Source of the DNA: an uncultured Colwellia sp. | GTDB lineage: Bacteria > Pseudomonadota > Gammaproteobacteria > Enterobacterales > Alteromonadaceae | Reading direction: 5' to 3' | Length of the DNA: 64,000 bases | Assembly: GCA_913058245.1 (NCBI GenBank) | Contig: CAJXQJ010000001.1 | Location: forward strand, 1-64,000 | Shown here: positions 42,853 through 61,894 of the stretch, piece after piece | Numbering within the stretch: position 1 is the first letter of the stretch | Layout: each line of letters begins with the position of its first letter | The notes under the pieces: model-generated | Seen by the model: only the letters and a program-made list of their open reading frames with translations | Told to the model about the DNA's origin: nothing | Databases searched by the model: none | Translations under genes and position numbers: made by a program

Positions 42853-44046
42853 ATGCCCATTCAACTGAATAATTTATTGAAGTTTTCACCATTACGTATT
42901 GTAAAACGTATTGCAATCCTTACCACATTATTAGCTGTATCAGCTTGCGGTCAAAAAGAGCAAATCGCTCAAAAAGCACCACCGCCAGCAGTGTCAACTT
43001 ATGTTGTTTCAATGGATAAAGTCGGTGATTACCGAGAATTTGTCGCACGTACTGTTGCATCAAAAGAAGTTGAATTAACAGCACGCGTTGAAGGTGAACT
43101 TGTTGAACGCTTATTTAAAGAAGGCGCCATCGTTGAAAAAGATCAAATTCTCCTAAAAATTGATCCAACCACCTACATTACCGCTTTAGAGTCGGCAAAA
43201 GCTGATTTAACTAGTAAAGTTGCTGGCGCACAGGGCGCTGCACGTGATTTGAAACGCGGTAAAGAAGTTGCGGGACAAGGATACATTTCGCAATCTGATT
43301 TAGATAAGTTAATCACTAATGATTCACAAGCAAAAGCAGCGGTTAATGTTGCTAAAGCCGCATTAGAGCAAGCTGAACTGAATTTAAGTTACACAACGAT
43401 TAGCGCACCATTTGCTGGGCACATAGGTAAAGTGAATTTTAGTGTTGGTAATATCGTAAGCCCTGCTAGTGGTTCTATCGCAACGTTAACGTCAACCAAT
43501 CCAATGTACGTGAGCTTTGGTGTCGAAGAAAGCGAATTTATTTCGTATTTGCAAGGCAAAAAAGCGAATAAAGGTGATGTAAAGGATGAATTAGACCTTA
43601 GTTTACGCCTACCTAATAACACCACGTATGCTGAAAAAGGCGAAATTATTTTTGCAGATACAAAAATAGAGCAGGGCATGGGCACAGTTGAGTTACGAGC
43701 AATTTTCCAAAATCCGGACGATATTATTCTACCAGGTTTATTTGTTACTCTAGTTGCAGAAAGTAAAGATAAAAAAGAAATGGCATTAATTCCACAAGCC
43801 TCTGTACAAGAAAACCAACAAGGTAAATTTGTTTTAGTTGTTGATGAGCAAAACAAAGTTGCACAACGAATTGTGACCTTAGGTCGTCGTATAAATGCAA
43901 TGTGGTTAGTTGAGTCTGGTTTGAAAGAAAATGAGCGAGTCATTATTGAAGGTTTACAAAAAGTGCGAAATGGTATTGAAGTAGGGCCAGTTGATAAACG
44001 TGTTGACCCTATAACGGGTGTTATTTCTGATTATTTGACACAGTAA
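42853..44046 (+). CDS. RND efflux periplasmic adaptor lipoprotein (AcrA/MexA type)
   Basis: This 397-residue protein starts at the ATG seven bases after AGGAG (an overlapping TTG one codon upstream is less likely). A basic leader and hydrophobic stretch end in a lipobox-like AVSAC (Cys32). Then come the lipoyl/barrel-sandwich halves ([59 protein letters not shown]) and a coiled-coil hairpin (about 110-170). It links the RND pump to an outer-membrane channel, whose gene is not in this window. Confidence 0.93.
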
Positions 44047-44056
44047 GGGGCAACTA

Positions 44057-47000
44057 ATGATAAGTAAAACCTTTATCAATAGACCTAAGTTTGCCTTTGT
44101 TATTTCAATACTGATTACACTGGCTGGCTTTATTGCAATGTTGTTATTGCCGGTTAATATGTACCCACAAATTACACCGCCACAAATAGAAATTACGGCC
44201 GTGTATCCTGGTGCTAGTGCGCAAGTGGTTGAAGAGTCGGTGATCCGACCCATTGAAGAGCAAGTTAATGGTGTAGAAGACATGCTCTATATCGAATCAA
44301 CTGCATCCAATAATGGTACCGCGACTATTACCGTATTTTTCAAAGTTGGTATTGATGGTGATATTGCACAAGTTAATGTGCAGAACCGAGTTGCACTTGC
44401 ACAAAGCTCATTACCAAGTGAGGTAACTAAACAAGGTGTTAGCGTAAAAACTAAATCTAGTGCGATGTTAATGGCAATTACGCTGTTTTCAGAACAAGAG
44501 AATATCGATCAGTTATTTTTAAGTAACTATGCAACAAACTACTTAACTGAGCCATTAGGTCGAATTCCAGGTGTTGCTGCAGCAAGTGTAATGGGTGAAA
44601 TGAGCTATAGCATGCGTGCTTGGTTAAACCCTGACCGTATGACATCTTTAGGTATCACTGTCGCTGAAGTACAACAAGCACTACAAGAGCAAAACTTAAT
44701 TGTTGCTGCTGGTAAATTAGGGGCCAGCCCAGCATTACCAAATCAACAATTTGAATATTCAATTCAGGCTAAAGGGCGCTTGAAAACTCCTGAAGAGTTT
44801 GGGCAAACTATTATTCGCTCTAATTCAAATAGCAAATTTATTCGCTTAGCTGATATTGCTCGTCTTGAACTAGGCTCTGAAAATTATGGTATACAAGCAC
44901 GGTTAAATGGCGCTGAAACAGCTTTCTTAGTTATTTATCAGTTACCAGATGCCAATGCAACTGAGGTTGCTGCACAAGTTAAATTAGCCATGGAAGAGTT
45001 ATCACAACGTTTTCCTGATGGTCTAGAATATGCGATTCCTTATGACACTACTGAGTTTATTGTTCGCTCTATAGAAGAAGTACAAGTAACCCTATATCAA
45101 GCTGTTGGTTTAGTTATTTTAGTAGTATTTCTATTCCTGCAAAATTGGCGGGCGACGATAATTCCCTCTATTGCAATTCCTGTATCCTTAATTGGTACTT
45201 TTGCTTTCATGCAATTGATGGGATATTCAATTAATACCATTACATTATTTGGTTTAGTTTTAGCTATTGGTATTGTGGTGGATGATGCCATTATCGTTAT
45301 TGAAAATGTTGAACGTATTCTGAAAGAAGAAGGCCTGCCAATTAAAGAGGCGGTGTCAAAAGCAATGGAGCAAGTATCAGGCCCTATCATTGCGACAACA
45401 TTAGTTTTGCTGGCGGTATTTGTACCTGTGGCATTTATGCCAGGTATAACAGGTGAACTTTACAAACAATTCTCGGTTACTATTTCTTTTGCGGTACTAA
45501 TATCCTCTATCAACGCTCTAACCTTAAGTCCTGCATTGTGTACGGTATTATTAAGTGCTGAAAAAATGAAACCGATAGGGTGGTTACTGCCGTTTGAACG
45601 CTTAATTGGGCGAGGAACGGTTGCATACACTTCTGGTGTGAATTTCTTATTAAAGAGAGCCGCACGTGTTGGTGTTCTTGTGTTAATTATGTTTGGTGCC
45701 ACTGCGTGGTTAACGAGTGAAGTGCCAACTGCATTTGTGCCAGGCGAAGATCAAGGCTATGTTTTTGTTGATGTTCAGTTACCTGATGCCGCATCAAGCA
45801 ATAGAACAGAAGCGTTATTAGCTAAAATCACACCCATTATTAAGCAAGACCCAGCGGTAACTGATGTCATTATGGTTTCGGGTACGTCACTGTTAGGTGG
45901 TGCAGGTTCAAATAATGCTCTTGGTATTATCATGTTAAAAGACTGGGAAGAGCGTACAACGCCGGAGTTAAAGTTACGTGCCATTATTGGTCGCTTAATG
46001 GGGCAGCTATGGGCAATGCCTGATGCGCAAATTATGATCTTTAACCCTCCGCCAATTCCTGGTTTAGGTAATAGCTCTGGTTTTGAGTTTAAATTACAAG
46101 ACAGTGAAGGCCGTAGTCCGGCAGATCTTGCACAGGTAATGAATGGCTTAATCTATGAGGCCAACCATCGCCCAGAGCTAAGTCGTGTATTTAGTACTTA
46201 TCGCGCTAATGTACCGCAATATTTCTTAGAAGTTGACCGTAATAAAGCCAAAGCACAAGGTGTAGCGTTATCAGATATTTTTGTTACCCTGCAGGCTCAA
46301 CTTGGCTCTATGTATGTTAATGACTTTAGCCAATTTGGTCGTACCTATAAAGTCACATTGCAGGCTGAGTCTGAATTTCGTAAGGACCCATCTGATTTAC
46401 GTCATTACTACGTGAAAAATAGTGCTGGTGAAATGGTGGCGTTAACCACGTTAGCTAAACTTGAGCCGATTCTTGGGCCAACAAGTATCACTCATTTTAA
46501 CCTTTATCGTAGTGCTGCTATTAGTGGTCAAGCTGCACCGGGCTATTCTTCTGGTCAAGCTATTGCTGCGATGGAAGAGTTAGCGGCTAAATTACCACAA
46601 GGTTATGTTTTTGAATGGTCTGGTCAGTCTAAACAAGAAATTGAAGCAGGCAACTTAGCACCAATATTATTTGGCCTAGCGATAATTTTTGTTTACCTAT
46701 TTTTAGTTGCACAATATGAGAGTTGGACCATACCATTCTCGGTTATTGCCGCAGTGCCATTAGCTATTTTTGGCGCTATGTTAACCTTATATACCGTTGG
46801 CATGGCTAACAATATTTATGCGCAAGTAGGGCTGATTCTCCTGATAGGTTTATCTACAAAAACGGCGATATTAATTGTTGAGTTTGCTATGGAACAAAGG
46901 GCTGCAGGTCATAGTATATTTGATGCTGCTTTAAATGCTGCACGCTTACGTTTTCGCGCAGTATTGATGACGGCCTTGTCATTCGTACTGGGTGTTTTAC

Positions 47001-47182
47001 CGTTAGTGTTTGCATCAGGCGCTGGTGCCGGTAGTCGTGTTTCACTCGGCTTGACCGTATTAGCTGGCATGGTGGCAGCAACTATATTTGGTACTTTGCT
47101 AGTTCCTTATTTTTATATGATTATTCAACGTATGCGTGAATATATTAAAGGTGAACCGGTAGCTGAAGTAAACAAAAGCTAA
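44057..47182 (+). CDS. RND multidrug efflux pump, inner-membrane permease (AcrB/MexB type)
   Basis: This 1041-residue protein is full length for HAE1 RND pumps. It begins with [18 protein letters not shown], and has the proton-relay Asp409-Asp410 in [16 protein letters not shown] in the fourth helix, [25 protein letters not shown] after it, and [14 protein letters not shown] in the C-terminal half. It exports drugs or other amphipathic compounds from the periplasm with proton motive force. It starts 10 bases after the adaptor gene. The specific substrate is unknown. Confidence 0.95.
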
Positions 47183-47199
47183 GGATAGTTTTAGGAAAT

Positions 47200-47230
47200 A
47201 AAAAAGCCGCTCATTGAGCGGCTTTTTTAA
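47200..47230. terminator. Bidirectional terminator between RND pump and gcvT
   Basis: AAAAAAGCCGCTCA and TGAGCGGCTTTTTT are complementary arms between two convergent genes, with A- and T-tracts on both sides. Confidence 0.92.
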
Positions 47231-47293
47231 TGGCTTATTGGCAACTAACTAAGCCATTGGTTGGTAGTCATTATCACTATTTAGCCAAGAAAC

Positions 47294-48421
47294 TTAACCA
47301 CGATAGTAGCGTTGTGAAACAAATGGCATTCTTTGAATGAGCATAGGTAACTTTTTACCACGAACGTCAGCATAAATTTCAGTGTCTAAAACAGCATACT
47401 TGGTTTCTACATAGCCCATAGCAATAGGAGCACCTTTACTAGGGCCAGCAGTACCACTGGTAACAATGCCAATTTTTTCATCATTGCTGTTATAAAGTTC
47501 AGCCCCTTCACGCACTGGAGCTTTGCCTAAGCCGACCATACCAATACGTTTACGTATTACGTCTTTTGTTACTATCTGATCTAGAATAATGTCCGCGCCA
47601 GGGAAACCACCAGCACGTGCACCGTCAGTACGACGTACTTTACTGATAGCCCATAAAAGGCTTGCTTCAACGGGTGTGGTTGTTTGGTCAATATCATGAC
47701 CATATAAGCACAGGCCTGACTCTAGTCGTAAAGAGTCCCTTGCGCCAAGACCAATCCATTCTACTTCTTGCTCTGCTAATAGTAAGCGAGTAATTCTCTC
47801 CGCATGTTCAGCTGGAATTGAAATTTCAAAGCCATCTTCGCCGGTATAACCCGCACGGCCTATAATGCATTCAGCACCATCGAAATTTACAACACGTGAA
47901 TCCATGAAAACCATATCAGCAGATTCTGGCAATAAGCGCTTCAGTACTTCGCCTGCTTTCGGTCCTTGTAGTGCAAGCAAAGCTCTACCTTCGAGTATTT
48001 CAATTTCTACATCTTCTGGTAAATGTTTTTGTAAATGTGCTATGTCTTGTGCCTTACAAGCGGCATTGACGACAACAAAAAGGTGATTGCCAAAGTTACT
48101 GACCATTAAATCATCAAGTAACCCACCTTGTTCATTTGTAAAAAGTGCATAACGCTGTTTGCCTTCAGGCAGATCAATAATGTCTACCGGTACTAAGGTT
48201 TCTAAAGCTTTTGCCGCATTTTTTCCTACTAATTTTAATTGTCCCATATGAGAAACATCGAATAACCCAGCCTGTGAGCGGGTATGCAAATGCTCTTTCT
48301 TCACCCCCATGTCATATTGTACAGGCATTTCATAGCCAGCAAACGGTACCATTTTGCCACTCGCTTCAAGGTGAAGGTCGTAACACGGGGTTTTAAGTAG
48401 TTTTTGGTTTGATTGAGTCAT
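47294..48421 (-). CDS. gcvT: Aminomethyltransferase (glycine cleavage T protein)
   Basis: This 375-residue protein is GcvT: TPCYDLHLEASGKMVPFAGYEMPVQYD, SQAGLFDVSHMGQLKLVG, RAGYTGEDGFEISIPAEHAE, LGARDSLRLESGLCLYGHDID and the C-terminal barrel with VTSGTAGPSKGAPIAMGYVE. It transfers the methylene group to tetrahydrofolate and frees ammonia. GGAG is five bases before the ATG. It follows the symporter gene by 61 bases on the same strand and is on the opposite strand to gcvH and gcvP, not the usual gcvTHP order. Confidence 0.96.
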   Translation of the reverse strand: MTQSNQKLLKTPCYDLHLEASGKMVPFAGYEMPVQYDMGVKKEHLHTRSQAGLFDVSHMGQLKLVGKNAAKALETLVPVDIIDLPEGKQRYALFTNEQGGLLDDLMVSNFGNHLFVVVNAACKAQDIAHLQKHLPEDVEIEILEGRALLALQGPKAGEVLKRLLPESADMVFMDSRVVNFDGAECIIGRAGYTGEDGFEISIPAEHAERITRLLLAEQEVEWIGLGARDSLRLESGLCLYGHDIDQTTTPVEASLLWAISKVRRTDGARAGGFPGADIILDQIVTKDVIRKRIGMVGLGKAPVREGAELYNSNDEKIGIVTSGTAGPSKGAPIAMGYVETKYAVLDTEIYADVRGKKLPMLIQRMPFVSQRYYRG

Positions 48422-48482
48422 AAGAGCTCCGTAAGCCGCCCGAATGGACGGCCTATAATATAGGATTAAGGGAAAAGAGGAG

Positions 48483-49865
48483 TTAGTCTGTTTGCTTTGT
48501 CATTTCGGCGGGCGCTTTACCGCCGCTAACAAAGTATTCTCGGGTTAACTTAATAACAACAGGGCTTAATAGCACGATTGCGATTAAGTTAGGAATTGCC
48601 ATTAGTGCATTCATAGTATCAGCAAGTAACCAAATGAACTCTAATGAGCCAATTGCCCCTACTGGCACAACAACAATCCAAAGTATACGGAATGGAATTA
48701 TTGCCTTAACACCGAAGAAGTACTGCACACATTTCTCACCGTATACACTCCAACCTAAGATAGTTGTAAAAGCAAATACTGTCAGTGCGATTGCGACGAT
48801 ATAGTTACCAAAAGGAATTGCTGTAGCGAAAGCGTTCGAAGTTAATTCTGCACCAGTAGCGCCAGATGTCCATTCGCCAGAAACAATAATAGCTAAGCCG
48901 GTAATTGAACAGACAATTAAGGTATCAATAAATGTACCTAACATGCCAACAAGGCCTTGTGCTACTGGGTTGTTAGTTTTAGCGGCAGCATGAGCAATTG
49001 GTGCACTACCTAAACCAGCTTCGTTTGAGAAAACACCACGAGCGACACCAAAACGGATTGCAGCCCATACAGCAGCACCAGCAAAACCACCTTCAGCGGC
49101 TGTGGAAGTAAAAGCACTTTCAAAAATTAATGCGAATGCGGCAGGAATATCAGCAGCATGGATAATAAGTACGACAACACCAGCGCTGATGTAAAATACC
49201 GCCATAAGAGGTACAAGTTTACCTGCAACATCACCAATTCGTTTAATGCCACCCATTAATACTAAGCCAACAAGTATCATCAGAATAATACCCGTAGCCA
49301 CAGGTGCTATTCCAAAGTTACTCTCAAGTGCATTGGCAACTGAATTGGTTTGAACTGTATTACCAATTCCAAAGGCAGCAACGGAGCCAAATAGTGCAAA
49401 CGCGCCACCTAACCAACCCCAGCGACTCGATAAGCCGTTTTTAATATAGTACATTGGACCACCAGTGTGGTTACCATTTTCATCTACTTCACGGTAGCGA
49501 ACTGCTAGCACTGCTTCAGCAAACTTAGTTGCCATACCAACCAAAGCGGTACACCACATCCAGAATAATGCACCTGGACCACCTAAGAAAATTGCCGTTG
49601 CAACACCTGCGATGTTACCTGTACCAATCGTTGCAGAAAGGGATGTCATCAATGCATTAAAAGGACTTATTTCTCCTTTAGCACTTTTATCTTCATCTGG
49701 TATACGACCACTCCAGAGCAACTTAAAACCGGTTCCTAACTTTAAAACTGGCATAAATCGTAAACTAACGGTTAAGAACAAACCGACGCCCAGTATCATG
49801 ACAAGCATAGGAACACCCCACACAATACCATTTAGACTGGATATTAAACTCGTTAAAAATTCCAT
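48483..49865 (-). CDS. Alanine/glycine:cation symporter (AGCS family)
   Basis: This 460-residue protein has about eleven helices and the AGCS signature: SLSATIGTGNIAGVATAIFLGGPGALFWMWCTALVGMATKFAE, then YRE and GGPMYYIKNGL, and ARGVFSNEAGLGSAPIAHAAAKTNNPVAQGLVGMLGTFIDTLIVC. These carriers take up alanine or glycine with sodium. GAGG precedes the ATG. Standing upstream of gcvT and next to a glycine-serine catabolic cluster, glycine is the likely substrate. A GTTTCC-N4-GGAAAC palindrome lies about 97 bases upstream. Confidence 0.93.
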   Translation of the reverse strand: MEFLTSLISSLNGIVWGVPMLVMILGVGLFLTVSLRFMPVLKLGTGFKLLWSGRIPDEDKSAKGEISPFNALMTSLSATIGTGNIAGVATAIFLGGPGALFWMWCTALVGMATKFAEAVLAVRYREVDENGNHTGGPMYYIKNGLSSRWGWLGGAFALFGSVAAFGIGNTVQTNSVANALESNFGIAPVATGIILMILVGLVLMGGIKRIGDVAGKLVPLMAVFYISAGVVVLIIHAADIPAAFALIFESAFTSTAAEGGFAGAAVWAAIRFGVARGVFSNEAGLGSAPIAHAAAKTNNPVAQGLVGMLGTFIDTLIVCSITGLAIIVSGEWTSGATGAELTSNAFATAIPFGNYIVAIALTVFAFTTILGWSVYGEKCVQYFFGVKAIIPFRILWIVVVPVGAIGSLEFIWLLADTMNALMAIPNLIAIVLLSPVVIKLTREYFVSGGKAPAEMTKQTD

Positions 49866-49961
49866 AATAACCTCATTACCTTGTTGTAATTTTATTTTTA
49901 CTACCTGCTTTTGTTGCGGGTATTTCTGTGATTATTCTCTTAATCAGAAACGTTACTTTTC

Positions 49962-49977
49962 GTTTCCAATAGGAAAC
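49962..49977. promoter_or_regulatory. GTTTCC-N4-GGAAAC operator, symporter side
   Basis: GTTTCCAATAGGAAAC is followed by AAAGT. The same 21 bases occur once more, with one difference, in front of sdaA (51155-51175). The two copies flank the XRE-cupin regulator gene, so this is a good candidate for its operator controlling the symporter-gcvT transcript. Confidence 0.75.
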
Positions 49978-50307
49978 AAAGTAAATACTTAGGAAAAAAT
50001 AAGCAACCTTTAATTACAGTTTATGCACATTTTTTTAACAACAAAATCAAAAAACACAATTAAAACAAAATCTTAATATTTTGCTGAAAATTGTTATAAA
50101 TTCTGTAAATGCGGCATTAATCAAATTTACTGCGTAAATATTCAGAAATCCTTATGTGAGAGTTTGTTTTATTTGTTAATTAAGCTTTCTATTATGATTA
50201 GAGTATGGTTGAAGTTTTAAATGTTCACAGCAAAAATAATAGCAAAGGTATTCATATGAAAGCGGCAATTTTTTAGGGAGGTCTTTTGTGATATTGCTTC
50301 GAGAAGG

Positions 50308-50331
50308 GCTTGTTTTTGTATTAAAACAAGC
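50308..50331 (-). terminator. Hairpin after XRE-cupin gene
   Basis: GCTTGTTTT and AAAACAAGC form a 9-bp stem with a 6-base loop, 66 bases after the regulator's stop codon. No T-tract follows, so terminator function is doubtful. Confidence 0.4.
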
Positions 50332-50396
50332 TATCTGATGTTTATGATGGTGTTTATTTTTGTTTTAAATCAATGGTTTGTTTTGTTTTTTGAGTG

Positions 50397-51026
50397 CTAG
50401 TCTGCTGTTACCCAGAGAATAACGGCATCTTCTTCACTAACAGAGATAACTAAATGTCCCATAGTAGCGTCGTAATACACGTTGTCACCTTTATTTAGGT
50501 TCATTGGCTCATAAAATTCAGTTAATAATTGAATTTCACCTTCTAACACCAATAAAAACTCTTCTCCTTCATGGCGAACCCACTCACCAAAGTCTTCAAA
50601 ACTTCTCGCATAGACTCGGCTTTTGTATGGCATCATTTTTTTATTACGAAACTGTGTGGCAAGTAATTCATGTTCATACGTTGATGTTACATGCGACTTT
50701 CCTGAGCTCTTTAAAGTAATGTCTCTTCGCCCTGTCGCTTGTCTCGCTTTAGGTTTTGTAAAAAGCTGGGGCAGCTCTATATCAAGGCCTGTAGCCAATT
50801 TTTGCATAACAGTAAAGGTTGGAGATATTTGCTCGTTTTCTATTTTTGATAACGTTGAACGGGCTAAGCCAGTGCGTTTACTGGCCTCTTCAAGAGTAAG
50901 CTTATTGTTAGTGCGTATGGCTTTCAATTGCGCACCGATCGTTATCTTTTCAACTGCGCGAACATTTTCTTGGCTGTCAGCCACTACCATAGAAGGGTAT
51001 ACATCTACTTTGTTTTGTTCACTCAT
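50397..51026 (-). CDS. XRE-family regulator with C-terminal cupin domain
   Basis: This roughly 209-residue protein has an N-terminal HTH (IGAQLKAIRTNNKLTLEEASKRTGLARSTLSKIENEQISPTFTVMQKLATGLDIEL, about 25-80) and a C-terminal cupin (FGEWVRHEGEEFLLVLEGEIQLLTEFYEPMNLNKGDNVYYDATMGHLVIS, about 140-205). Such regulators often sense amino-acid-related metabolites through the cupin. I chose the ATG at 51026; a GTG three codons upstream is possible. It lies between the two arms of the glycine/serine cluster, with matching palindromes on each side, so it probably controls both. Whether it represses or activates cannot be told. Confidence 0.9.
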   Translation of the reverse strand: MSEQNKVDVYPSMVVADSQENVRAVEKITIGAQLKAIRTNNKLTLEEASKRTGLARSTLSKIENEQISPTFTVMQKLATGLDIELPQLFTKPKARQATGRRDITLKSSGKSHVTSTYEHELLATQFRNKKMMPYKSRVYARSFEDFGEWVRHEGEEFLLVLEGEIQLLTEFYEPMNLNKGDNVYYDATMGHLVISVSEEDAVILWVTAD

Positions 51027-51154
51027 TTTATTCACTAATTAAAAAAATACTGATGAGTCTAATTGTTACATATCCTGCGCGGGCAAAAAACCCGAAATAG
51101 TAAAAAATAAACAATTAGTAAAATCAACACTTAAGCTGATTTTTTATGGAAAAA

Positions 51155-51170
51155 GTTTCCGATAGGAAAC
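51155..51170. promoter_or_regulatory. GTTTCC-N4-GGAAAC operator, sdaA side
   Basis: GTTTCCGATAGGAAAC is followed by AAAGT and lies 85 bases upstream of sdaA and 128 bases from the regulator start. It differs by one base from the copy before the symporter gene. It may control sdaA-glyA-gcvH-gcvP and the regulator itself. Confidence 0.75.
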
Positions 51171-51255
51171 AAAGTTGTTGAAATGGAAAGTGGAGGCTGT
51201 TATGTTTTAAAAACGTTACGAAGTTGATCGTTTATGTAAATACCAAGGATAAGAC

Positions 51256-52623
51256 ATGGCACATAGTATTTTCGATTTATTTAAAATAGGTGTTGGACCT
51301 TCAAGTTCACACACCGTTGGACCTATGGTTGCCGGTAACCGTTTTATCAAATTACTATCTAACTCGACTGCGTTAACTAAAACATCTCACCTACAAGTTA
51401 ACTTATATGGTTCTCTTGCATTAACTGGAAAAGGTCATGCAACCGATATTGCGTCAACATTAGGTTTGATGTCTCAATCACCAGACCTAGTTAATCCAGA
51501 TAAAATTCCCGAGTTATTAAAAAATATTAAAGAAACGCAGAAATTACCGCTTTGCCGGAAAGATGGTGTTGCTATTCGTTTTAATCCAAAAACTGACATT
51601 GTTTTTAATTTTTCAGCGTTTCTACCTGAACATCCAAATGGCATGACGATATCAGCCCTAAATGAAAGTGGGGAGGTAGTTTTACAGCAAACATATTTTT
51701 CAGTTGGTGGTGGTTTTGTTCTAGATAAGGAACAACTTGGAACTGATGTTCAATTGTCGGTTTCTTTACCGTACCCATTTGAAAATGCCAAAGAGTTACT
51801 TGAACACTGCCAAGAAAATCAACGTTCAATTACGCAAATTATGTTGGCCAATGAGAAGGCGTTGGGCACTGATGATATTTTAGAAAAAATAGCGCAAATG
51901 TGGCAAGTAATGTCTGCGTGTATTGAACGTGGTATTGCTACAGGTGGTGTTTTACCAGGCAGTTTAAAGCTAAAGCGACGCGCATATGATATGCATCAAC
52001 GCCTTATTGGAACTAGTCAAGAAGAGCAGTTTGATACGCTTGATTGGGTAAACCTTTATGCCATGGCCGTTAATGAAGAAAATGCTGCTGGCGGCAGAGT
52101 GGTTACTGCACCGACTAATGGCGCAGCTGGAGTTATTCCTGCGGTTATTGCTTGGTTTCTCAAATTTAAAAGTAAAAACGATCAGCAAGGCATTATTGAG
52201 TTTATGACAACCGCTGCAGCCATAGGTTTACTTTATAAAAAGAATGCTTCGATATCTGCAGCTGAAGTGGGTTGCCAAGGTGAAATAGGAGTTGCTTGTT
52301 CAATGGCTGCGGCAGGTCTAACGGCTGCAATGGGAGGAACCCCAGAGCAAGTTGAAAATGCTGCAGAGATCGGAATGGAGCATAACTTGGGCTTAACCTG
52401 TGATCCTATCAATGGTTTAGTACAAGTGCCCTGTATTGAACGCAATACCATGGGAGCGTTAAAAGCGATTAATGCTAGTCGTTTAGCTATGCAGAGTGAT
52501 GGCATACATCATGTACATCTTGATGATGTAATTAAAACCATGCATCAAACAGGTCTAGATATGATGAGCAAATATAAAGAAACCTCTCAAGGTGGTTTAG
52601 CTATAAACGTTGTTGCTTGTTAA
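51256..52623 (+). CDS. sdaA: L-serine ammonia-lyase (single chain)
   Basis: This 455-residue protein starts [21 protein letters not shown], the serine dehydratase beta part, then an alpha part with the iron-sulfur cysteines in [41 protein letters not shown]. It deaminates serine to pyruvate and ammonia using a [4Fe-4S] cluster. It is the first gene of the sdaA-glyA-gcvH-gcvP-porin group, AAGGAT precedes the ATG, and a regulator palindrome lies upstream. Confidence 0.95.
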
Positions 52624-52700
52624 ACGAAATTATTGTCGGTTACTTCGACACATTCGCTAAGTGTTCAAGTATTTAGCGGTTTAAATAAAGGATAGTAAAG

Positions 52701-53996
52701 ATGAAAAGTCATTATACATCTCATGAATTAGAACAATTTTTTTCAGCTAAATTGCCTGACACGGATGGGGCGATACAAGTTGCTATTGATCTAGAAGTTA
52801 AGCGCCAAGAGCAACAAATCGAACTTATTGCCTCAGAGAATATTGTTTCTAAAGCGGTAATGGAAACGCAAGGTACTGTACTCACTAATAAATATGCAGA
52901 AGGTTACCCTGGTCGTCGTTACTATGGTGGTTGTGAGCATGTCGATTTAGTTGAGAAGCTTGCAATTGACCGTGCAAAACAAATTTTTAGTGCTGAATAT
53001 GTTAACGTTCAGCCTCATTCAGGTGCACAAGCTAATGGTGCTGTTATGTTAGCGTTAGTGCAGCCTGGAGATACCATTTTAGGTATGTCACTAGATGCTG
53101 GTGGTCACTTAACCCACGGCGCACGCCCAGCACAATCAGGTAAGTGGTTTAACGCTATTCAATACGGCGTACGTAAAGATGATATGCGCATTGATTATGA
53201 TGAAGTATTAGCCTTAGCTAAAGAGCATAAGCCTAAGCTTATCATCGCTGGTGGTTCAGCTATCCCACGCCAAATTGATTTTTCTCAATTTAGAAAAATT
53301 GCAGATGAAGTTGGGGCATTATTAATGGTTGATATGGCACATATTGCCGGTTTAGTGGCAACAGGCCATCATCAAAACCCATTGCCGTATGCTGACATCG
53401 TTACAACAACAACCCATAAAACATTGCGTGGTCCGCGTGGTGGTTTGATTCTAACCAATGATGAAACTATCGCGAAGAAAATTAACTCTGCCGTTTTTCC
53501 TGGCTTACAAGGTGGCCCATTAATGCATGTTATTGCCGCCAAAGCCGTTGCTTTAGGTGAAGTGTTAGAACCTGAATTTAACGCTTACATTAAAAATGTA
53601 CTTAGCAATGCCAATGTACTTGCCGAAACGTTAAAAGAACGTGGATGCGATATCGTCACTGACGGTACAGACACTCATTTAATGTTGGTTGATTTAAGAC
53701 CAAAAGGTTTAAAAGGCAATGCCGCGGAAGAAAGTTTAGAACGTGCCGGCATTACTTGTAATAAAAATGGCATCCCGTTTGATCCTGAAAAACCTATGGT
53801 TACATCGGGTATTCGCTTAGGAACGCCAGCTGGTACCAGTCGAGGTTTTGGTAACGATGAATTTGAAATAATTGGTCAGTTAATTGGTGACGTACTAGAT
53901 GGACTAGTCACTAACCCCGATGATAATAGTGTTGCAGAAAAAAAAGCTCTACAACATGTCAAAGCGCTATGCGAGAAATTTCCTTTGTATAGCTAA
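52701..53996 (+). CDS. glyA: Serine hydroxymethyltransferase
   Basis: This 431-residue PLP enzyme has Lys240 in [64 protein letters not shown] and [14 protein letters not shown]. It interconverts glycine plus methylene-THF with serine. The 20-residue N-terminal extension and the cluster with gcvHP and sdaA suggest a catabolic paralogue like P. aeruginosa GlyA2 (PA2444) rather than the housekeeping copy, which would be elsewhere. It follows sdaA by 77 bases. Confidence 0.95.
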
Positions 53997-54100
53997 TCAC
54001 TTAATGAACTAAAGCAGAGCTTTAGTTCACTTCTCACCCCTTTATTTATGGCGATAAATCATTGCCAGGGGAGAGTCATCACTAAATTTTGGAGTCTGTT

Positions 54101-54487
54101 ATGAGCACAGTAGAAAAAAACTATAAATTTGCCGCCAGTCACGAATGGGTAAAAGACAATGGCGATGGCACGGTAACGCTTGGTATTTCAAGTCATGCGC
54201 AAGAGTTATTAGGTGATGTGGTTTTTGTCGAGCTTCCTGAAGAAGGCGACACGATTACCGCTGGAGAAAGCTTCTCACTTGTTGAATCAGTTAAAGCCGC
54301 ATCAGATGTTTATGCGCCTGTGTCAGGAGAAGTTATTGCGGTTAATGAAGAGCTTGATGATAGCCCGGAGCTCATTAACGAAGCGTCTTTTACAGAAGGT
54401 TGGATAGCTAAAGTACGACTTTCTACACCCGCACAGCTTGATGAATTACTTGATAGCACCGCTTATTACGAGGCTGTTGAAGAGTAA
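54101..54487 (+). CDS. gcvH: Glycine cleavage H protein
   Basis: This 128-residue protein starts at the ATG 54101 (GGAG six bases upstream), not at the TTG 54089. Lipoyl-carrying Lys65 is in SLVESVKAASDVYAPVSGEV. It shuttles the aminomethyl group between GcvP, GcvT and the lipoamide dehydrogenase. It is 104 bases after glyA and 58 bases before gcvP. Confidence 0.96.
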   Translation: MSTVEKNYKFAASHEWVKDNGDGTVTLGISSHAQELLGDVVFVELPEEGDTITAGESFSLVESVKAASDVYAPVSGEVIAVNEELDDSPELINEASFTEGWIAKVRLSTPAQLDELLDSTAYYEAVEE

Positions 54488-54545
54488 CCTCTTCACCCAT
54501 CTAACAATAACAAGACATTAGCTCAATGGGGCTTTTGGAGTAATT

Positions 54546-57407
54546 ATGAGTAATGAAAGTTTACTAGCGCAATTAGGTGATGATTTAGATTTTATTGGTC
54601 GCCACAACGGCCCAAACCTTAAGCAAAAACAGTATATGTTAAGTGCGTTAGGTGTTGAATCAATTGATAAGTTAATTGATGAAACTGTACCTGAAAATAT
54701 TCGCCTTCATCAACCTATGTCACTTGAAAAGCCCTTAAGTGAAGTCGACATGCTAGCAAAACTACAAGCGATTGCGGCAAAAAATCAAGTAAACAAAACT
54801 TATATTGGTCAAGGTTATTATGACACCCATGTGCCTAATGTAATTTTACGCAACGTTTTTGAAAACCCAGGTTGGTATACCGCTTATACACCATATCAAC
54901 CTGAAATATCGCAAGGACGATTAGAAGCGCTATTAAATTACCAGCAAATGATCACTGACCTCACCGCGATGGAATTATCAAATGCTTCTTTGCTTGATGA
55001 AGCTACTGCGGCGGCTGAAGCGATGAGTCTCTGTAAGCGAGCGGGTAAAAATAAAAGCAATAGCTTCTTTGTTAGTGATGACGTACACCCACAAACTTTA
55101 GATGTTATTCGAACTCGCGCTCAGTATTTTTCATTTGAGATAATTGTGGCTCCTTGTCATGAGCTCGATCAACATGACGTATTTGGCGCTTTATTGCAAT
55201 ATCCTGGCACTACCGGTCAAGTTCACAGTTTAGAATCATTAATCGCTCAAGCGCATAGTAAAAAGACGCTCATTGCAGTGGCAACAGATTTACTGGCATT
55301 AACCGTTTTAAAGGCACCTGGTGAAATTGGCGCTGATGTTGTGATAGGTAGTGCACAACGATTTGGTGTTCCTATGGGGTATGGTGGTCCTCATGCCGCA
55401 TTTATGGCCACCAGTGAAAAATATAAACGTACCATTCCTGGGCGCGTTATTGGTGTGTCAATTGATAGTAAAGGCAAGCCTGGTTTACGCATGGCGATGC
55501 AAACACGTGAGCAGCATATTCGACGTGAAAAAGCCAATTCCAATATTTGTACGGCTCAGGCCTTACTTGCCAATATGGCATCATTTTTTGCTGTATACCA
55601 TGGTCCTGATGGCTTGAAAAAAATTGCACGTCGCGTAAATCGTCTAATGTCAATTTTAGCTAAAGGCTTGCAACAAGCAGGGATTAGCCTTGTACATGAG
55701 CAATTCTTTGACACTATTACCTTACAAACCAATGAAAATACTGGTGCTATATATCAACGAGCACTTGACCAAGGTCTTAATTTACGCAGATTACCTGAAC
55801 AATTAGGTATCAGTATTGATGAAACCACAACGGCTGCAGACATTGAGCTTTTATTGCTAGTTATCACTGAGCAAACAATAGCAGTCAGCGAAATAGAGCC
55901 GTTGTTGACGGAAGAATTTTCTTATATACCGGAAGAGTGCCGTCGTAAAAGTGAATTTTTAACCCACCCAGTTTTTAATAGTTATCATAGTGAAACACGG
56001 ATGTTGCGTTATATGAAAAGTCTTGAAAATAAAGACTTTTCATTAACTCACGGTATGATCCCACTAGGCTCATGTACTATGAAGCTTAATGCCACCGCAC
56101 AAATGATCCCTGTGACTTGGCCAGAATTCTCTCGAATGCACCCTTACGCACCAGAAGAGCAATGTTTAGGCTACCAAGCATTATCAGAAAGCCTAAGCGC
56201 AATGTTGTGCAGCGTTACCGGCTACGATGCTTTTTCGTTACAACCCAATTCTGGAGCGCAAGGTGAATATGCTGGACTAATTGCGATTCAGCGCTATCAC
56301 GCTTCTCGTGGTGATCATCATCGTAATATTTGCCTTATTCCAAGTTCTGCACACGGTACTAACCCTGCAAGTGCGGCAATGGTATCAATGCGTATTGTCA
56401 TTGTTGCTTGTGACAAGCTTGGCAATGTCGATATGGATGATTTGGCTAGCAAAATTGCACTACACAAAGAGCAATTAGCGGCAATTATGATCACATACCC
56501 GTCCACTCATGGCGTGTATGAAGAAAGTATTAAAGAAATATGCCAACAAGTTCATGATGCTGGCGGCCAAGTCTATTTAGATGGTGCCAACATGAATGCA
56601 CAAGTGGGCATTACATCGCCGGGCTTTATTGGCTCTGATGTTTCTCATTTAAATTTACATAAAACCTTTTGTATCCCTCACGGTGGCGGTGGTCCTGGCA
56701 TGGGACCAATCGGTGTTAAATCTCACTTAGCTGAGTTTTTACCTGGCCATTGTACCGAAGGAACATATGGTGCGGTATCAGCAACAGCAATGGGCAGTGC
56801 TTCAATCTTACCTATTTCATGGGCGTATATTGCACTTATGGGAACCAAAGGCCTAACGGAAGCCACTGAGTTAGCAATTCTAAACGCTAATTACATTATG
56901 GAAAAGCTTAGCCCACATTATCCCGTGTTATTTAGAGGTAACAAAGGTCGAGTAGCGCACGAATGTATTATCGACTTAAGGCCACTAAAAGAGTCTTCAG
57001 GAATAAGTGAAGAGGATGTTGCTAAGCGTCTTATGGATTTTGGTTTCCATGCACCAACCATGTCATTTCCTGTTGCTGGCACTTTGATGATTGAGCCAAC
57101 AGAGAGTGAGTCACTTGAAGAGTTGGATAAGTTTATTGATGCCATGGTTACCATACGCCATGAAATAGCGAAAGTTGAAGATGGCACTTGGTCTCTCACC
57201 GATAACCCTTTAGTCAATGCCCCTCACACCCTAAGTGACCTAACCGAAGCTGAGTGGCCACGCGCTTATTCACGCATGACAGCATGTTACCCAAGCAGTA
57301 GCCCTGACCAAGCCAAGTTTTGGCCAACAACGAACCGAATTGACAATGTTTACGGCGATAGAAATTTAATTTGTGGTTGTCCGAGTATCGACAACTACAT
57401 CGATTAA
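54546..57407 (+). CDS. gcvP: Glycine dehydrogenase (decarboxylating), P protein
   Basis: This 953-residue protein is a full-length single-chain GcvP. It has [21 protein letters not shown] at the start, the first-half [22 protein letters not shown] block, and the PLP Lys706 in [21 protein letters not shown]. It decarboxylates glycine and passes the aminomethyl group to GcvH. TTTTGGAG precedes the ATG. Confidence 0.97.
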
Positions 57408-57494
57408 TAACGGTGCCTACCGGCGCGATTAAAGAAAAGAAATAAAGTGCTTAGCACTGAAGTTTCTAATAACTGGAAAACTGAGGAAATAGAA

Positions 57495-58586
57495 ATGAAG
57501 AATATAAAACTAAAATCTGTATTACTCCCGATTGCATTAGCAATCAGTCCAACATTTTTAGTACATGCTGCTGATGCAGATACGCAAAGTCAAATAGATG
57601 CCTTGCAAAGACGTTTAGCTGAACTTGAAAGCGAAGATAAAAAAGAGCAAGCAAGAAAAGAAGATTATGGTGTTACAGTATATGGTAGTTTTCGCCCTGC
57701 ATTAACTTATAGCGATTTTGGTAATGACGAAAGCAGTACTGATGTGACTGATTTCTTCTCTCGAATTGGTTTTAAAGGTGACATTAAAGTTAATGACAGT
57801 ATCACTGCTTTTTACCAAGGTGAGTGGGATATTGACGTTGAAGCCGATGCTGATTTTGGTGATGCCCGTTTAGGTTTTGTAGGTTTAGAAGGTGATTTTG
57901 GTCGTGTCGCTTTAGGTAAGCAATGGAGCCCTCATTACAATATTGTTGCTGAAGCAACGGATATTTTTAATAATCGCTCGAGTCCATTTGGCTATGATGA
58001 AGCGAGCCCATTTCGGACTAACCAAATGGTAACGTATTCATATAGTAATGGTGGTTTTAAGCTAGATGCAGGTTTGCAGTTTAATGGTGATGCAGAAAAC
58101 TCAGCAGGTGGCGATAACTCAGAGGCTAATAACACTGAACAGGTTGATTCTGGCTCGATTGGCGTTAGTTACAGCTTCGGTGACTTTTACCTTGGTGCGT
58201 CATATTTAGATCAGCAGCTTGATGTTGACGATGAAAGAGACTTTCGTGCTGTTGCAGGTAGCTGGAAAGTAAGTAAAGATTTCTATGTTGCTGTAACTTA
58301 CCAAGATATTGAACGCACTATGGGTACTAATACTTATGACCAATCGTCATTTGATATTGCCGCATCATATGCTTTAAGTAAAAACTACACTTTTAAAACT
58401 TCATACTTTGATTGGGATGGTGACGGACAGGGCCGTACATTTGACGGTTACAACCTAACTTTAGAAAACCAATTAAATGACTCAGTAAAAGTATTTGTTG
58501 AATATTTAACACGTGACATTGAAGGTGGCGAACAGCAAAAACATTTAAGTGTTGGTATGCGTTATGACTTCGAAGGTTTGTTTTAA
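57495..58586 (+). CDS. Outer-membrane porin
   Basis: This 363-residue protein starts at the ATG 57495 (AGGA upstream), not the TTG 57447. It has a signal peptide (cleavage after VHA), a short coiled stretch (QIDALQRRLAELESEDKKEQARK), then a general-porin barrel with alternating aromatic strands and a terminal phenylalanine (RYDFEGLF). It follows gcvP by 87 bases, so it may be expressed with the glycine genes and admit small amino acids; that is inference. Confidence 0.85.
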   Translation: MKNIKLKSVLLPIALAISPTFLVHAADADTQSQIDALQRRLAELESEDKKEQARKEDYGVTVYGSFRPALTYSDFGNDESSTDVTDFFSRIGFKGDIKVNDSITAFYQGEWDIDVEADADFGDARLGFVGLEGDFGRVALGKQWSPHYNIVAEATDIFNNRSSPFGYDEASPFRTNQMVTYSYSNGGFKLDAGLQFNGDAENSAGGDNSEANNTEQVDSGSIGVSYSFGDFYLGASYLDQQLDVDDERDFRAVAGSWKVSKDFYVAVTYQDIERTMGTNTYDQSSFDIAASYALSKNYTFKTSYFDWDGDGQGRTFDGYNLTLENQLNDSVKVFVEYLTRDIEGGEQQKHLSVGMRYDFEGLF

Positions 58587-59039: not shown

Positions 59040-60419
59040 CTAAAAAATAAGTCGAATACTTGTTCCTTGATTAATTTTACTGTCCAAAGTTACATGGCCA
59101 CTGTGAGCGAGCATTATTTGCCTAGTCAGTGCTAAACCAACACCTGAGCCATCTCTTTTTGTGGTATAAAAAGGCACAAAGGCATTATCAGCAACTTCTT
59201 TACTCATGCCGCAACCACTATCATTTACTTCAATAACAGGATGGCCACGTTTATTGATAAAAGCATTTAATTCTATCTTTCTAATTTTACAGCCATCAGT
59301 TGCCTGCTCTGCATTTTTTAGCAGGTTAATTAATACTTGTGACAACATATCTTGATCAACATTTATATCCAAACTTTCAGGTGTAATATTGCAGCTAATG
59401 GCAAGGTTTTGTACTGACCAATGCTGACAAGAAATATCAATAACTTGTTGAGCTAAAAACCTTACTGAAGTCGTGTTTTTATTTGGTGTCGGCAGGCGAG
59501 TTAAGCGCCGATAGCTATCGACAAATGTCATTAATCCTTTACTACGCCTCGCAACGGTAGTGACTGCATCGGTTACGTCACGGAGATCCGCGCTGATATC
59601 TTGGCTACTAATATCTTTTTTATCCGCGGGGTGTTGTGCGATATCTTTAATAATATCATCAACTAAATCTGCGGCAGTACTGGCCAAAGAGGCGACAGGT
59701 GTGATGCTATTCATTATTTCATGGGTTAAAACACTAACTAGGTCTTGCCATGCTTGTAATTGCGCTGATACAAGTTCGTTTTGAATATCTTGTAAACTAA
59801 ATAATAATTCTTGCTGCTGAGCAAGTCTTATTTCCGTGGCGGCAACAGTTAATTGATGTTCAATACCGTCTATATTTAATTTTATTAGTTGGCGTTCTCC
59901 GGCCTGCATTGATTTCATTTGCTCTGGAAAGTGCAGTCCAAATTGTGCCAAGTCATCTAATCTAATTACGGGGGTAGTGCCAAATAGTCTTCTGGCACTA
60001 TTATTCCATAACGTGATTTGGTTTTCTTGGTTGAGACTTATTAATGGTACAGGAACATGTTCGACAACCGCTTTTAAATGCTTTAATTCTGTAATTTGTG
60101 CTGTTCTTGCTTTTTGTAGGCGAGTTAAAATATCGGTAAAAGCGTGACCTAGTTCTTCAAAACCAGCACCTACATTAGATAAATCAAAACGTTGTGAGAA
60201 GTCAGCATAACGAGCAGCATCAAAAAAACGCACTAACTCATTATTGGTTTTAGAAACAAAGTTTACCAATTCAATAAATTGGCTAATTAATAGCACTATT
60301 AGCAATATTGTTGCCGCGTGATAACCCGAAGTTGTTAAAGCAATTGTTAGTAACACTAAGGTTATCATTGCCGCGACCGTGCGAGCGATGATCCGTAAGG
60401 AGAATTGTTTAAAGCCCAT
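59040..60419 (-). CDS. Sensor histidine kinase (NtrY-like)
   Basis: This 459-residue protein has two N-terminal membrane helices (about 12-30 and 34-55), a PAS domain (about 115-215), a histidine phosphorylation site His233 in VLTHEIMNSITPVASL and an ATPase domain (NLLKNAEQAT; IEVNDSGCGMSKEVADNAFVPFYTTKRDGSGVGLAL). It overlaps the response regulator gene by 11 bases, so the two are coupled. With no large periplasmic sensor domain, it may sense a membrane or cytosolic cue. It is next to an export system across the divergent spacer. Confidence 0.92.
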   Translation of the reverse strand: MGFKQFSLRIIARTVAAMITLVLLTIALTTSGYHAATILLIVLLISQFIELVNFVSKTNNELVRFFDAARYADFSQRFDLSNVGAGFEELGHAFTDILTRLQKARTAQITELKHLKAVVEHVPVPLISLNQENQITLWNNSARRLFGTTPVIRLDDLAQFGLHFPEQMKSMQAGERQLIKLNIDGIEHQLTVAATEIRLAQQQELLFSLQDIQNELVSAQLQAWQDLVSVLTHEIMNSITPVASLASTAADLVDDIIKDIAQHPADKKDISSQDISADLRDVTDAVTTVARRSKGLMTFVDSYRRLTRLPTPNKNTTSVRFLAQQVIDISCQHWSVQNLAISCNITPESLDINVDQDMLSQVLINLLKNAEQATDGCKIRKIELNAFINKRGHPVIEVNDSGCGMSKEVADNAFVPFYTTKRDGSGVGLALTRQIMLAHSGHVTLDSKINQGTSIRLIF

Positions 60420-61854
60420 ACTTTTCCATCCTTCTGTACAGTGCTGCTCGTGTTAAACCTAGTGCTTTAGCACAGTGGCTGATATTGTATCGATGTTTTT
60501 TCAGTGCCGCAGTTATCGCTTGTTTTTCCATTTCTTCTAAAGTTAATTCGTTTTCCATATGAGCATTGGCAGGCAAAAATGCATTTGGGGTTTTATCTGT
60601 ATTTTGATTAAAATTTTGCTGTGCTTTTTGCTCTAATTGAAAGTCACTAATTTGTAAGTCAGCATGCTCGGTTAGAATAACTGCACGCTCAATGGCATGG
60701 CGTAAAGCTCTAATGTTGCCTTGCCATGGCTCTTGCAGTAAAACTTGTTTAGTATCGCTTGTTAAGCTGTTAACTGACTTGTTATATTTTTTACTGTACA
60801 AAGCGATAAAGTGCTCAGCAATTTTCACAATATCTTCTTTTCGTTCTCTCAGTGGCGGTAAATTAAGGGTCACAGTGTTTAATCGAAATAATAAATCTTG
60901 TCTAAATTTACTCTCATTATTTAGCACTTCCTGAGGAATGTTGGTAGCAGCGATTACTCTGACATTAAAAGGCTGTGCTTGATTACTGCCTAATGGTGTT
61001 ACTTGGCGTTGTTCAAGCACAGTTAATAACTTTGCTTGTAAATAAAGTGGTAAGTTGCCAATTTCATCTAGAAATAAAGTTCCGCCATCAGCAGCTTTTA
61101 ATTTACCAATACGGTCTTGCTGAGCGCCGGTAAATGCCCCTTTTTTATGACCAAATAATTCACTTTCAAATAAGCTTTCTGAAATAGCACCTAAGTCAAT
61201 AGACATAAAAATATTGGTCGCTCGTTGGCTTTGAGAGTGAATGTCACGCGCTATTAGTTCTTTGCCTGTACCATTTTCACCTAAAATAAGGACATTAGCA
61301 TCAGTTGGTGCTGCTTTATGGATAAGAGCGTGAACATTTTGCATTGGCTTAGATTGGCCAATGATCATTTGCTGAGTATGTTGGTTATTCGCTTGTCCTG
61401 AGGTTTCCGCTAAGGTTTGCACTAACGCTTGGTTTGTTACCTTTAATTGTGCCGCTTCAAAACGTGATTTACCGAGTTGCACCGCCGTTGATAATGTCGC
61501 GATTACTTTTTCATTTTGCCAAGGTTTGGCGATAAAGTCAGTGGCACCTTGTTTCATGGCATCGACAGCAATATCAACACCGCCATGTGCTGTGATCATA
61601 ACAACGATACTATTGGGTTTAATGACTAGTATTTCTTTTAGCCAATAAAAACCTTGCTCACCGGAGCTTTCGCCAGGACCAAAATTCATATCCAATAAAA
61701 TAGCATCAAAATCATTTTCTTTAATGAGTTTAGGTATTTGTTCGGGGCGATTACATATGCGGACTTCTGAAAATTTACGATTTAGTAGTAGTTTTCCTGC
61801 CACCAGTATGTCTTGGTCGTCATCAACGATGAGTATTTTTCCGTCTATTTTCAT
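60409..61854 (-). CDS. NtrC-family sigma-54 response regulator
   Basis: From the ATG at 61854 this is 481 residues: a receiver with phospho-acceptor Asp55 in ILLDMNFGPG, an AAA+ domain with Walker A (LGENGTGKELIARDIH), GAFTGA loop (KKGAFTGAQ) and Walker B (GGTLFLDEIG), and a C-terminal Fis-type HTH (KHRYNISHCAKALGLTRAALYRRMEKYGL). A GTG 19 codons upstream (61911) would overlap the binding boxes and is less likely. It activates sigma-54 promoters with the kinase encoded just downstream; its probable target is the divergent exporter. Confidence 0.93.
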   Translation of the reverse strand: MKIDGKILIVDDDQDILVAGKLLLNRKFSEVRICNRPEQIPKLIKENDFDAILLDMNFGPGESSGEQGFYWLKEILVIKPNSIVVMITAHGGVDIAVDAMKQGATDFIAKPWQNEKVIATLSTAVQLGKSRFEAAQLKVTNQALVQTLAETSGQANNQHTQQMIIGQSKPMQNVHALIHKAAPTDANVLILGENGTGKELIARDIHSQSQRATNIFMSIDLGAISESLFESELFGHKKGAFTGAQQDRIGKLKAADGGTLFLDEIGNLPLYLQAKLLTVLEQRQVTPLGSNQAQPFNVRVIAATNIPQEVLNNESKFRQDLLFRLNTVTLNLPPLRERKEDIVKIAEHFIALYSKKYNKSVNSLTSDTKQVLLQEPWQGNIRALRHAIERAVILTEHADLQISDFQLEQKAQQNFNQNTDKTPNAFLPANAHMENELTLEEMEKQAITAALKKHRYNISHCAKALGLTRAALYRRMEKYGL

Positions 61855-61894
61855 TTTTATTTTGATGCTGTAACAGCAAGTTAGGGAAACAAAC

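Follow-up and report, generated by a model that had tools for sequence, protein, structure and literature searches.

The analysed window comprises the first 64,000 nucleotides (forward strand) of contig CAJXQJ010000001.1 in the assembly GCA_913058245.1 of an uncultured Colwellia sp. The subject of this analysis is a cluster of glycine-catabolic genes located between positions 47294 and 58586, together with the gene of an XRE-cupin protein and with a palindrome, GTTTCC-N4-GGAAAC, that occurs once ahead of each of the two arms of the cluster. The two arms diverge from a central region: agcS and gcvT are read on the minus strand, and sdaA, glyA, gcvH, gcvP and a porin gene on the plus strand, with the XRE-cupin gene (minus strand) lying between them. 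The initial annotation had placed these eight genes here, and the analysis of the open reading frames (ORFs) and of the Pfam and NCBIfam profiles recovered all of them, each intact:

47294-48421, minus strand: gcvT, aminomethyltransferase (T protein) of the PRK13579 type; NF010093, 543 bits (cut-off 459); aligned to the T protein 1wsr, residues 7-373
48483-49865, minus strand: agcS, symporter of the Na+/alanine-glycine family; TIGR00835, 517 bits; match to AgcS 6cse, residues 3-444
50397-51035, minus strand: XRE-cupin regulator (HTH_3 and Cupin_2); Pfam and an alignment of 36 relatives
51256-52623, plus strand: sdaA, one-chain Fe-S L-serine ammonia-lyase; TIGR00720, 667 bits; aligned to 4rqo
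52701-53996, plus strand: glyA, serine hydroxymethyltransferase; NF000586, 632 bits; aligned to 3ecd
54089-54487, plus strand: gcvH, lipoyl carrier H protein; TIGR00527, 154 bits; aligned to the H protein 3a8i
54546-57407, plus strand: gcvP, glycine decarboxylase P protein; TIGR00461, 1462 bits; aligned to 9uz6 over 6-951
57447-58586, plus strand: porin (Porin_4); Pfam

The scores of GcvT, SdaA, GcvH and GcvP exceed the NCBIfam equivalog cut-offs and those of AgcS and GlyA the subfamily cut-offs; the alignments of these six proteins to the solved homologues listed above are nearly full-length. In three cases the probable start lies inside the ORF. On the basis of the sequence and of the position where the homologues begin, the regulator is expected to start at the ATG at 51026 rather than at the GTG at 51035, and gcvH at the ATG at 54101 rather than at the TTG at 54089; for the porin, the ATG at 57495 was preferred to the GTG at 57447, and a stretch resembling a signal peptide (judged by eye) follows it.

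The pathway that these genes would encode is well established: two glycines give one pyruvate, CO2, two NH3 and NADH, a balance that the initial annotation had proposed and that is within the capacity of the enzyme set. Glycine, or alanine, would enter through AgcS; the breakdown of one glycine into CO2, NH3, NADH and methylene-tetrahydrofolate would be the task of GcvP, GcvH and GcvT, assisted by a dihydrolipoamide dehydrogenase supplied from elsewhere; GlyA would then form serine from the methylene unit and a second glycine, and SdaA would split this serine into pyruvate and NH3. The description of the locus as self-contained is slightly too strong in that the L protein is encoded outside the cluster, where a dihydrolipoamide dehydrogenase gene (lpd), scoring over its family cut-off, was found in the source genome.

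The assembly of this genome (2.96 Mb in 30 contigs) is 66.9% complete, and copy numbers can only be undercounted. It harbors a second gcvT-gcvH-gcvP set on the same contig, 18-20 kb downstream (at about 76650-81300), whose products are 35, 52 and 64% identical, respectively, to those of the cluster; the palindrome, with up to one mismatch, is absent around this second set (positions 76000-83000 scanned). A second sdaA is also present, and the search for a further, housekeeping glyA, which the initial annotation had recommended, disclosed another glyA elsewhere in the genome. As to copies, the glyA and the gcv set of the cluster are not the only ones, glyA and gcvTHP each being duplicated. The second copies of gcvTHP, glyA and sdaA, together with lpd, show that the cluster is an extra set, probably a catabolic one, existing beside the housekeeping enzymes.

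The palindrome and the promoters predicted next to it are located as follows:

49962-49977, no strand assigned: operator 1, GTTTCC-AATA-GGAAAC (minus strand: GTTTCCTATTGGAAAC), immediately downstream of the -10 box predicted for agcS
49978-50006, minus strand: predicted agcS-gcvT promoter, with the -35 box TTGCTT (50001-50006), 17 nt and the -10 box TACTTT (49978-49983)
51155-51170, no strand assigned: operator 2, GTTTCC-GATA-GGAAAC, between the regulator gene and sdaA, at predicted -58 to -43 of the sdaA promoter
51178-51206, plus strand: predicted sdaA-glyA-gcvH-gcvP promoter, TTGAAA, 17 nt and TATGTT, the latter preceded by TG; among the sites of the general promoter scan

The two putative operators are spaced 1.19 kb and belong to a 21-nt word shared by the two intergenic regions (95% identical), that is, GTTTCC-AATA-GGAAACAAAGT at 49962 and GTTTCC-GATA-GGAAACAAAGT at 51155. 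In the whole 2.96 Mb assembly, GTTTCCNATNGGAAAC has exactly two exact matches, which are these two operators; the sole further match with up to one mismatch falls inside a receptor-like ORF and was not retained as an operator. A terminator scan also read operator 2 as a terminator-like stem followed by a run of T on the minus strand. A DNA site was preferred to an RNA hairpin because, in the relatives, the half-sites keep their letters while the middle four positions vary (judged by eye). A short inverted repeat (CGGGCAAAAAACCCG, plus strand) is also located at 51080-51094, between operator 2 and the start of the regulator gene.

The conservation of the palindrome was assessed on the relatives of the regulator. 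The protein scan of named genomes retrieved 358 relatives, and the analysis was continued with the best 80; 68 of these 80 are gcv-linked, i.e., accompanied by a match to gcvP or gcvT, and 12 are not. In 59 of the 68 gcv-linked loci (related rows, counted without correction for the tree) the 500 nt upstream of the regulator gene contain an operator with up to one mismatch, whereas 59 permuted half-sites reach at most 1 locus. Seven of the nine remaining loci have their best site at two mismatches, and the other two at three (L065) and four (L030). Among the 12 relatives without gcv matches, four carry an exact site (L015, L027, L029 and L054, all with glyA and one also with agcS), and the other eight show nothing closer than four mismatches.

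A second sample was composed of 197 genomes drawn evenly across the order. The regulator (threshold E <= 1e-60) was found in 33 of them and the exact GTTTCCWWWWGGAAAC in 22; joining the two tables by hand, the site is present in 21 of the 33 regulator-bearing genomes versus 1 of the 164 lacking the regulator (Fisher p 7e-19, uncorrected for relatedness). A reversed control pattern occurs in 3/197 genomes, none of which bears the regulator. Moreover, 22 of the 25 exact sites in the 197 genomes, counted by hand, are at most 0.5 kb from the regulator gene. In genome G136, an exact site is located 101 nt ahead of an sdaA ORF (the protein being 53% identical) on a contig other than that of the regulator, and in genome G188, which is regulator-positive, ahead of a glyA-gcvH-gcvP-porin array on a contig without a regulator match; these two unlinked sites serve as a small blind test of the predicted target set. 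The third of the 25 sites away from the regulator gene falls inside a murD-like ORF of a genome in which the regulator was not found (G182). A family-wide draw of 79 genomes says little about the co-occurrence, because the regulator (E <= 1e-40) is present in only 2 of them, in one of which (G026) it spans two frames, and the exact GTTTCCNATNGGAAAC in 3 (those two and G039). In G039, where the regulator was not found, the site is between two flagellin-like genes; it and the site of G182 were read as chance occurrences (gene names by eye in both cases). Because the gene and the palindrome co-occur, and unlinked target genes are also preceded by the site, the role of regulator that the initial annotation had given to the XRE-cupin protein is very probable, and the protein would act through the palindrome.

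The regulator itself consists of an N-terminal helix-turn-helix domain (HTH_3) and a C-terminal cupin domain only, in the order typical of XRE-cupin proteins, and is present in a single copy in the source assembly. An assignment to PuuR (NF007408) was rejected, the score being 51.9 bits against a curated cut-off of 211. In other genomes the family has several members: C. demingiae (L017, L019, L020 and L052) and a C. psychrerythraea isolate (L016, L021 and L042) possess three to four copies each, including the gcv-linked one, and two of these paralogues (L042 and L052) are located beside a LysR-type gene. The gcv-unlinked copies of these two organisms have no operator within two mismatches, and these include the locus DNA of the C. 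demingiae paralogue L019, which is 75% identical to the regulator and lies beside soxG-, purU- and fdhA-type genes (the soxG-type gene scores 140 bits, just under the 144-bit cut-off; the fdhA-type one is a glutathione-independent formaldehyde dehydrogenase gene). In a genome of the same genus (G026), the regulator gene is split over two frames (L137, 9167-9798), and two operator sites, agcS, glyA and the porin remain. As regards the sensed metabolite, glycine is the most likely one, because the predicted targets, the symporter and the sarcosine-linked paralogue all meet at glycine.

The locus is not a one-off arrangement, since the neighbourhood of an XRE-cupin gene and gcv genes recurs widely among Vibrionaceae, Psychromonas, Shewanella and Colwelliaceae (the 68 loci above, out of the best 80 of 358 relatives). 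Gene content was counted in the 55 gcv-linked relatives having more than 7 kb of left and 4 kb of right flank. Full-length gcvH and gcvP are present in all 55, gcvT in 54, glyA in 31, agcS in 14, sdaA in 13 and the porin, counted when at least 70% of the query was covered, in 11; the complete eight-gene set was found in only two loci (L012 and L043). Among the relatives, a porin gene comes after gcvP in those from Colwelliaceae and Shewanellaceae and in a single metagenome-assembled genome labelled Psychrobiaceae (L012), so that a chance neighbourhood was rejected for the two former families; none was seen at the Vibrionaceae loci of the relative set. In the closest named relative, Cognaticolwellia mytili (L010, 9411-9781 and 10001-20636), the regulator is 96% identical, sdaA is reduced to remnants (judged by eye), and no gcvT match follows agcS in the 20-kb locus. 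Two further loci (L015 and L018) have no gcvT or gcvH match and either no gcvP or a fragment of it, and they maintain the regulator, agcS, glyA and both operators, each with one mismatch in L018. The locus of Litorilituus lipolyticus RZ04 (Colwelliaceae) comprises the regulator, the two operators, agcS, gcvT, glyA, gcvH and gcvP, and gave no match to sdaA. It appears from these comparisons that the locus erodes among the relatives, and that the window contains an unusually complete copy.

The position of the two operators with respect to the predicted promoters is different in the two arms. On the sdaA side, the predicted start lies about 50 nt past the centre of operator 2, and the operator sits upstream of the -35 box. 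In the relatives, a -10-like TAYRHT hexamer begins 28-30 nt past the operator in 33/71 cases, all 33 being distinct operators, while 500 shuffles reach at most 9; after the removal of near-copies the same spacing is found for 26/53 operators. On the agcS side, 13 of 18 relatives have a TTG-N19/20-TANNTT pattern whose end coincides with the operator boundary (at most 2 with shuffled flanks); the window, which is not counted among the 13, has the same layout, the end of its -10 box being at offset 0 from the operator. The agcS promoter of the window scored too low to be listed by the general promoter scan. The geometry constitutes good evidence in a large share of the relatives, though not in every one. 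Repression by covering the promoter fits the agcS side and does not fit the sdaA side: the former site, which covers the predicted start, is repressor-like, whereas the latter, at about -50, is activator-like in that it would fit activation better than promoter occlusion.

A different type of control, the glycine riboswitch, was also searched for. In the window, RF00504 has no match at the gathering score, and between 47000 and 59000 none up to an E value of 5; the source assembly, in which all 62 candidates were scored, has none either. Weak matches to leader- and small-RNA-type families at about 47064-47325 correspond to one hairpin, read on both strands, between an acrB-like gene and gcvT, and were not considered riboswitches. 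RF00504 was then searched in 20 genomes (the source and 19 from the 80 loci; for several of them only the best 125 candidates were scored) and was found in 11; it is absent in the source and in eight others, softly where the scoring covered the best 125 candidates. The riboswitch lies ahead of an AGCS gene of a different clade in 10 of the 11 Vibrionaceae genomes tested, and it was not found in the six Colwelliaceae and Shewanellaceae relatives tested (several with the best 125 candidates scored). All 20 aptamer matches, at 11 places, adjoin an AGCS gene. In a tree of 32 AGCS proteins, the 20 in-cluster rows, which include the AgcS of the window, are separated from the 11 riboswitch-linked rows, each set forming a group of its own (support 94/89 and 100/97). 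Of the eight genomes with an in-cluster agcS only one, Photobacterium frigidiphilum, also has a riboswitch-associated AGCS gene, versus 10 of the 12 without it. The split between riboswitch-linked and in-cluster AGCS follows the taxonomy, which is a pattern and not a proof of replacement.

As for the flanking regions, an RND-type efflux pair (a membrane fusion protein and an AcrB-like pump, named by eye) occupies 42850-47182, adjoining the gcvT end of the cluster; the pump gene and gcvT converge, with a hairpin at about 47197-47231 between them. Past the porin, at 59040-61911, a histidine kinase-like gene and an NtrC-like response regulator gene (by eye) are read in the opposite direction.

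On the whole, we consider it likely that the cluster represents an accessory glycine-catabolic island endowed with its own local switch, an XRE-cupin protein operating at GTTTCC-N4-GGAAAC. Computation documents the genes, their duplicate copies, the conservation and co-occurrence of the operator and, in a large share of the relatives, the promoter geometry; the binding of the regulator, the sign of regulation and the ligand are inferred, according to the following scheme. A dimer of the XRE-cupin protein would bind the palindrome at the two sites. In the agcS-gcvT arm, uptake would be repressed until the signal is bound, because the site covers the predicted transcription start; in the sdaA-glyA-gcvH-gcvP arm, where the site is just upstream of the -35 box, occupation of the cupin domain by glycine or a closely related product (serine or a one-carbon folate signal) would probably make the protein activate transcription, or turn it from a repressor into an activator. 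It is known that lambda CI, another helix-turn-helix repressor, carries out both repression and activation from one kind of site. A more extended proposal, which we regard as tentative, is that of a dual glycine switch, in which the same type of palindrome shuts the symporter arm and turns on the catabolic one, and which in Colwelliaceae and Shewanellaceae, with their own AGCS clade, replaces the riboswitch control of glycine uptake of most Vibrionaceae; if so, the protein would be capable of activation, unlike the repressors so far studied in its family.

Several observations weigh against this scheme. The exact site is missing from 12 of the 33 regulator-bearing genomes of the order-wide sample; 11 of these 12 belong to one genus (f21 g72), presumably Vibrio, whose loci often show ATTTCC in one operator half. 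The second operator, ahead of gcvT, is absent in many relatives. With the general -35/-10 score, the sdaA side (6.79) barely exceeds the highest value reached by its shuffles (6.64), and the agcS/gcvT side (6.78) stays under that of its shuffled flanks (7.11); the two-box test was passed by 28 of 58 deduplicated sdaA-side operators and mostly failed by the Photobacterium rows; and the general promoter scan of the region revealed no excess (24 sites versus a shuffle mean of 31.9). The AlphaFold model of the regulator is poor (mean predicted local distance difference test score 58.6). Lastly, activation on the sdaA side would be unusual, all the XRE-cupin proteins studied in P. aeruginosa being described as inhibitors of neighbouring genes (PMC7901475).

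This last point is at the same time an argument for a plain local repressor acting at both arms, as in Pseudomonas, with the ligand releasing the protein and inducing the two arms together; this may well be the case, even though we would place it somewhat short of an even chance. The agcS-side operator, which covers the predicted start, agrees with it, and the sdaA side could be accommodated if the upstream site blocked the contacts of the alpha subunit or if a loop formed between the operators, of which the window has two at a distance of 1.19 kb. However, many relatives have a single operator, so that looping cannot be general, and the operator of the sdaA side precedes the -35 box, the -10-like hexamer following at 28-30 nt in 33/71 cases, a position better suited to activation. 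It is very improbable, instead, that the palindrome is the site of some other transcription factor and that the XRE-cupin gene is a mere neighbour, given the contrast between 21/33 genomes with the regulator and 1/164 without it and the location of 22/25 sites within 0.5 kb of the gene.

The function of the island can also be read differently, in that it might serve mainly for glycine detoxification or for the supply of one-carbon units and serine, with sdaA and agcS as optional parts, rather than for growth on glycine, which, like a part played by the porin, we infer. The low frequency of full-length sdaA (13/55) and agcS (14/55) in the long-flank relatives and the sdaA remnant of C. mytili speak in favour of such a function, and so does the gcvT-gcvH-gcvP-glyA2 locus of V. 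cholerae, where strains without the gcv genes are discussed as defective in glycine catabolism (PMC5473594). In the window, on the contrary, neither sdaA nor agcS is damaged and both arms are provided with an operator of their own, and in G136 an exact operator precedes the unlinked sdaA ORF by 101 nt; we hold this function to be rather unlikely as the main one. If the accessory island with its local switch is accepted, the regulator, its operator and a small regulon common to marine Vibrionaceae, Psychromonas, Shewanella and Colwelliaceae would constitute a directly testable control system, offering a naturally occurring case in which control by a protein and by a riboswitch can be compared within one transporter family and, possibly, a part for a glycine or serine biosensor.

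The comparison with known systems begins with the gcs2 operon of P. aeruginosa (gcvH2-gcvP2-glyA2-sdaA-gcvT2), which is reported to be required for the use of glycine as sole carbon source and is controlled by GcsR, a TyrR-like enhancer-binding activator recognizing TGTAACG-N4-CGTTCCG (PMC4894688). The parallel drawn in the initial annotation is correct: the same five enzymes (gcvT, gcvH, gcvP, glyA and sdaA) are found together and, in both cases, are extra to other copies. The genes form a single operon there, whereas here they are split into two arms, with a different palindrome, an added symporter and an added porin; in addition, the in-cluster regulator has only helix-turn-helix and cupin domains and is not of the GcsR type. 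The NtrC-like ORF (by eye), at 60409-61911, is located past both the porin and the kinase-like ORF and outside this comparison. In V. cholerae, gcvT, gcvH, gcvP and glyA2 are in one locus (PMC5473594), so that the same core enzymes share one place, with a second glyA and the dihydrolipoamide dehydrogenase gene elsewhere; no regulator or operator is named in the portion of that article considered. Other Vibrio species have an XRE-cupin gene at the corresponding locus, often with a variant operator, and no in-cluster agcS or porin was found at the Vibrio loci of the relative set.

Among the XRE-cupin regulators studied in P. aeruginosa (ErfA, PsdR, PauR and others; PMC7901475), the domain order, the palindromic sites, the few and mostly local targets and the link with catabolic genes are the same as here, and the predicted operator copies in our data are indeed few and mostly local. 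Those proteins are reported to inhibit at core promoters, whereas one arm of the present cluster is activator-like in its layout; the words glycine and serine are absent from the main text of PMC7901475. In Colwellia psychrerythraea 34H, XRE-family genes follow soxBDAG (PMC3691474), a sarcosine rather than a glycine locus, and the C. demingiae paralogue L019 is in a like setting. With the tandem glycine riboswitch of Vibrionaceae, reported to regulate transport proteins in all 37 cases (PMC6944388), the present system has in common that an AGCS symporter gene is controlled, glycine being the probable signal, and it differs in that the control would be exerted by a protein instead of an RNA and on a different AGCS group; Shewanella genomes with glycine riboswitches have been reported as well (PMC3223726). 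Elsewhere, glycine catabolism is described as controlled by GcsR (Pseudomonas), by GcvA (E. coli and Shewanella) or by riboswitches (PMC4894688, PMC3223726, PMC6944388). Literature searches, which covered openly licensed PMC papers in listings capped at 8 to 20 papers and not the RegPrecise database itself, gave no description of this regulator or operator, and neither GTTTCC nor GGAAAC occurs at the start of a word in the main text of PMC12565409, which deals with the palindromes of XRE regulators. Within that literature, the pathway and the type of cluster are known from P. aeruginosa gcs2 and from the V. cholerae locus, while the putative regulator-operator pair, the predicted regulon, including an unlinked sdaA, and the two-sided layout are new.

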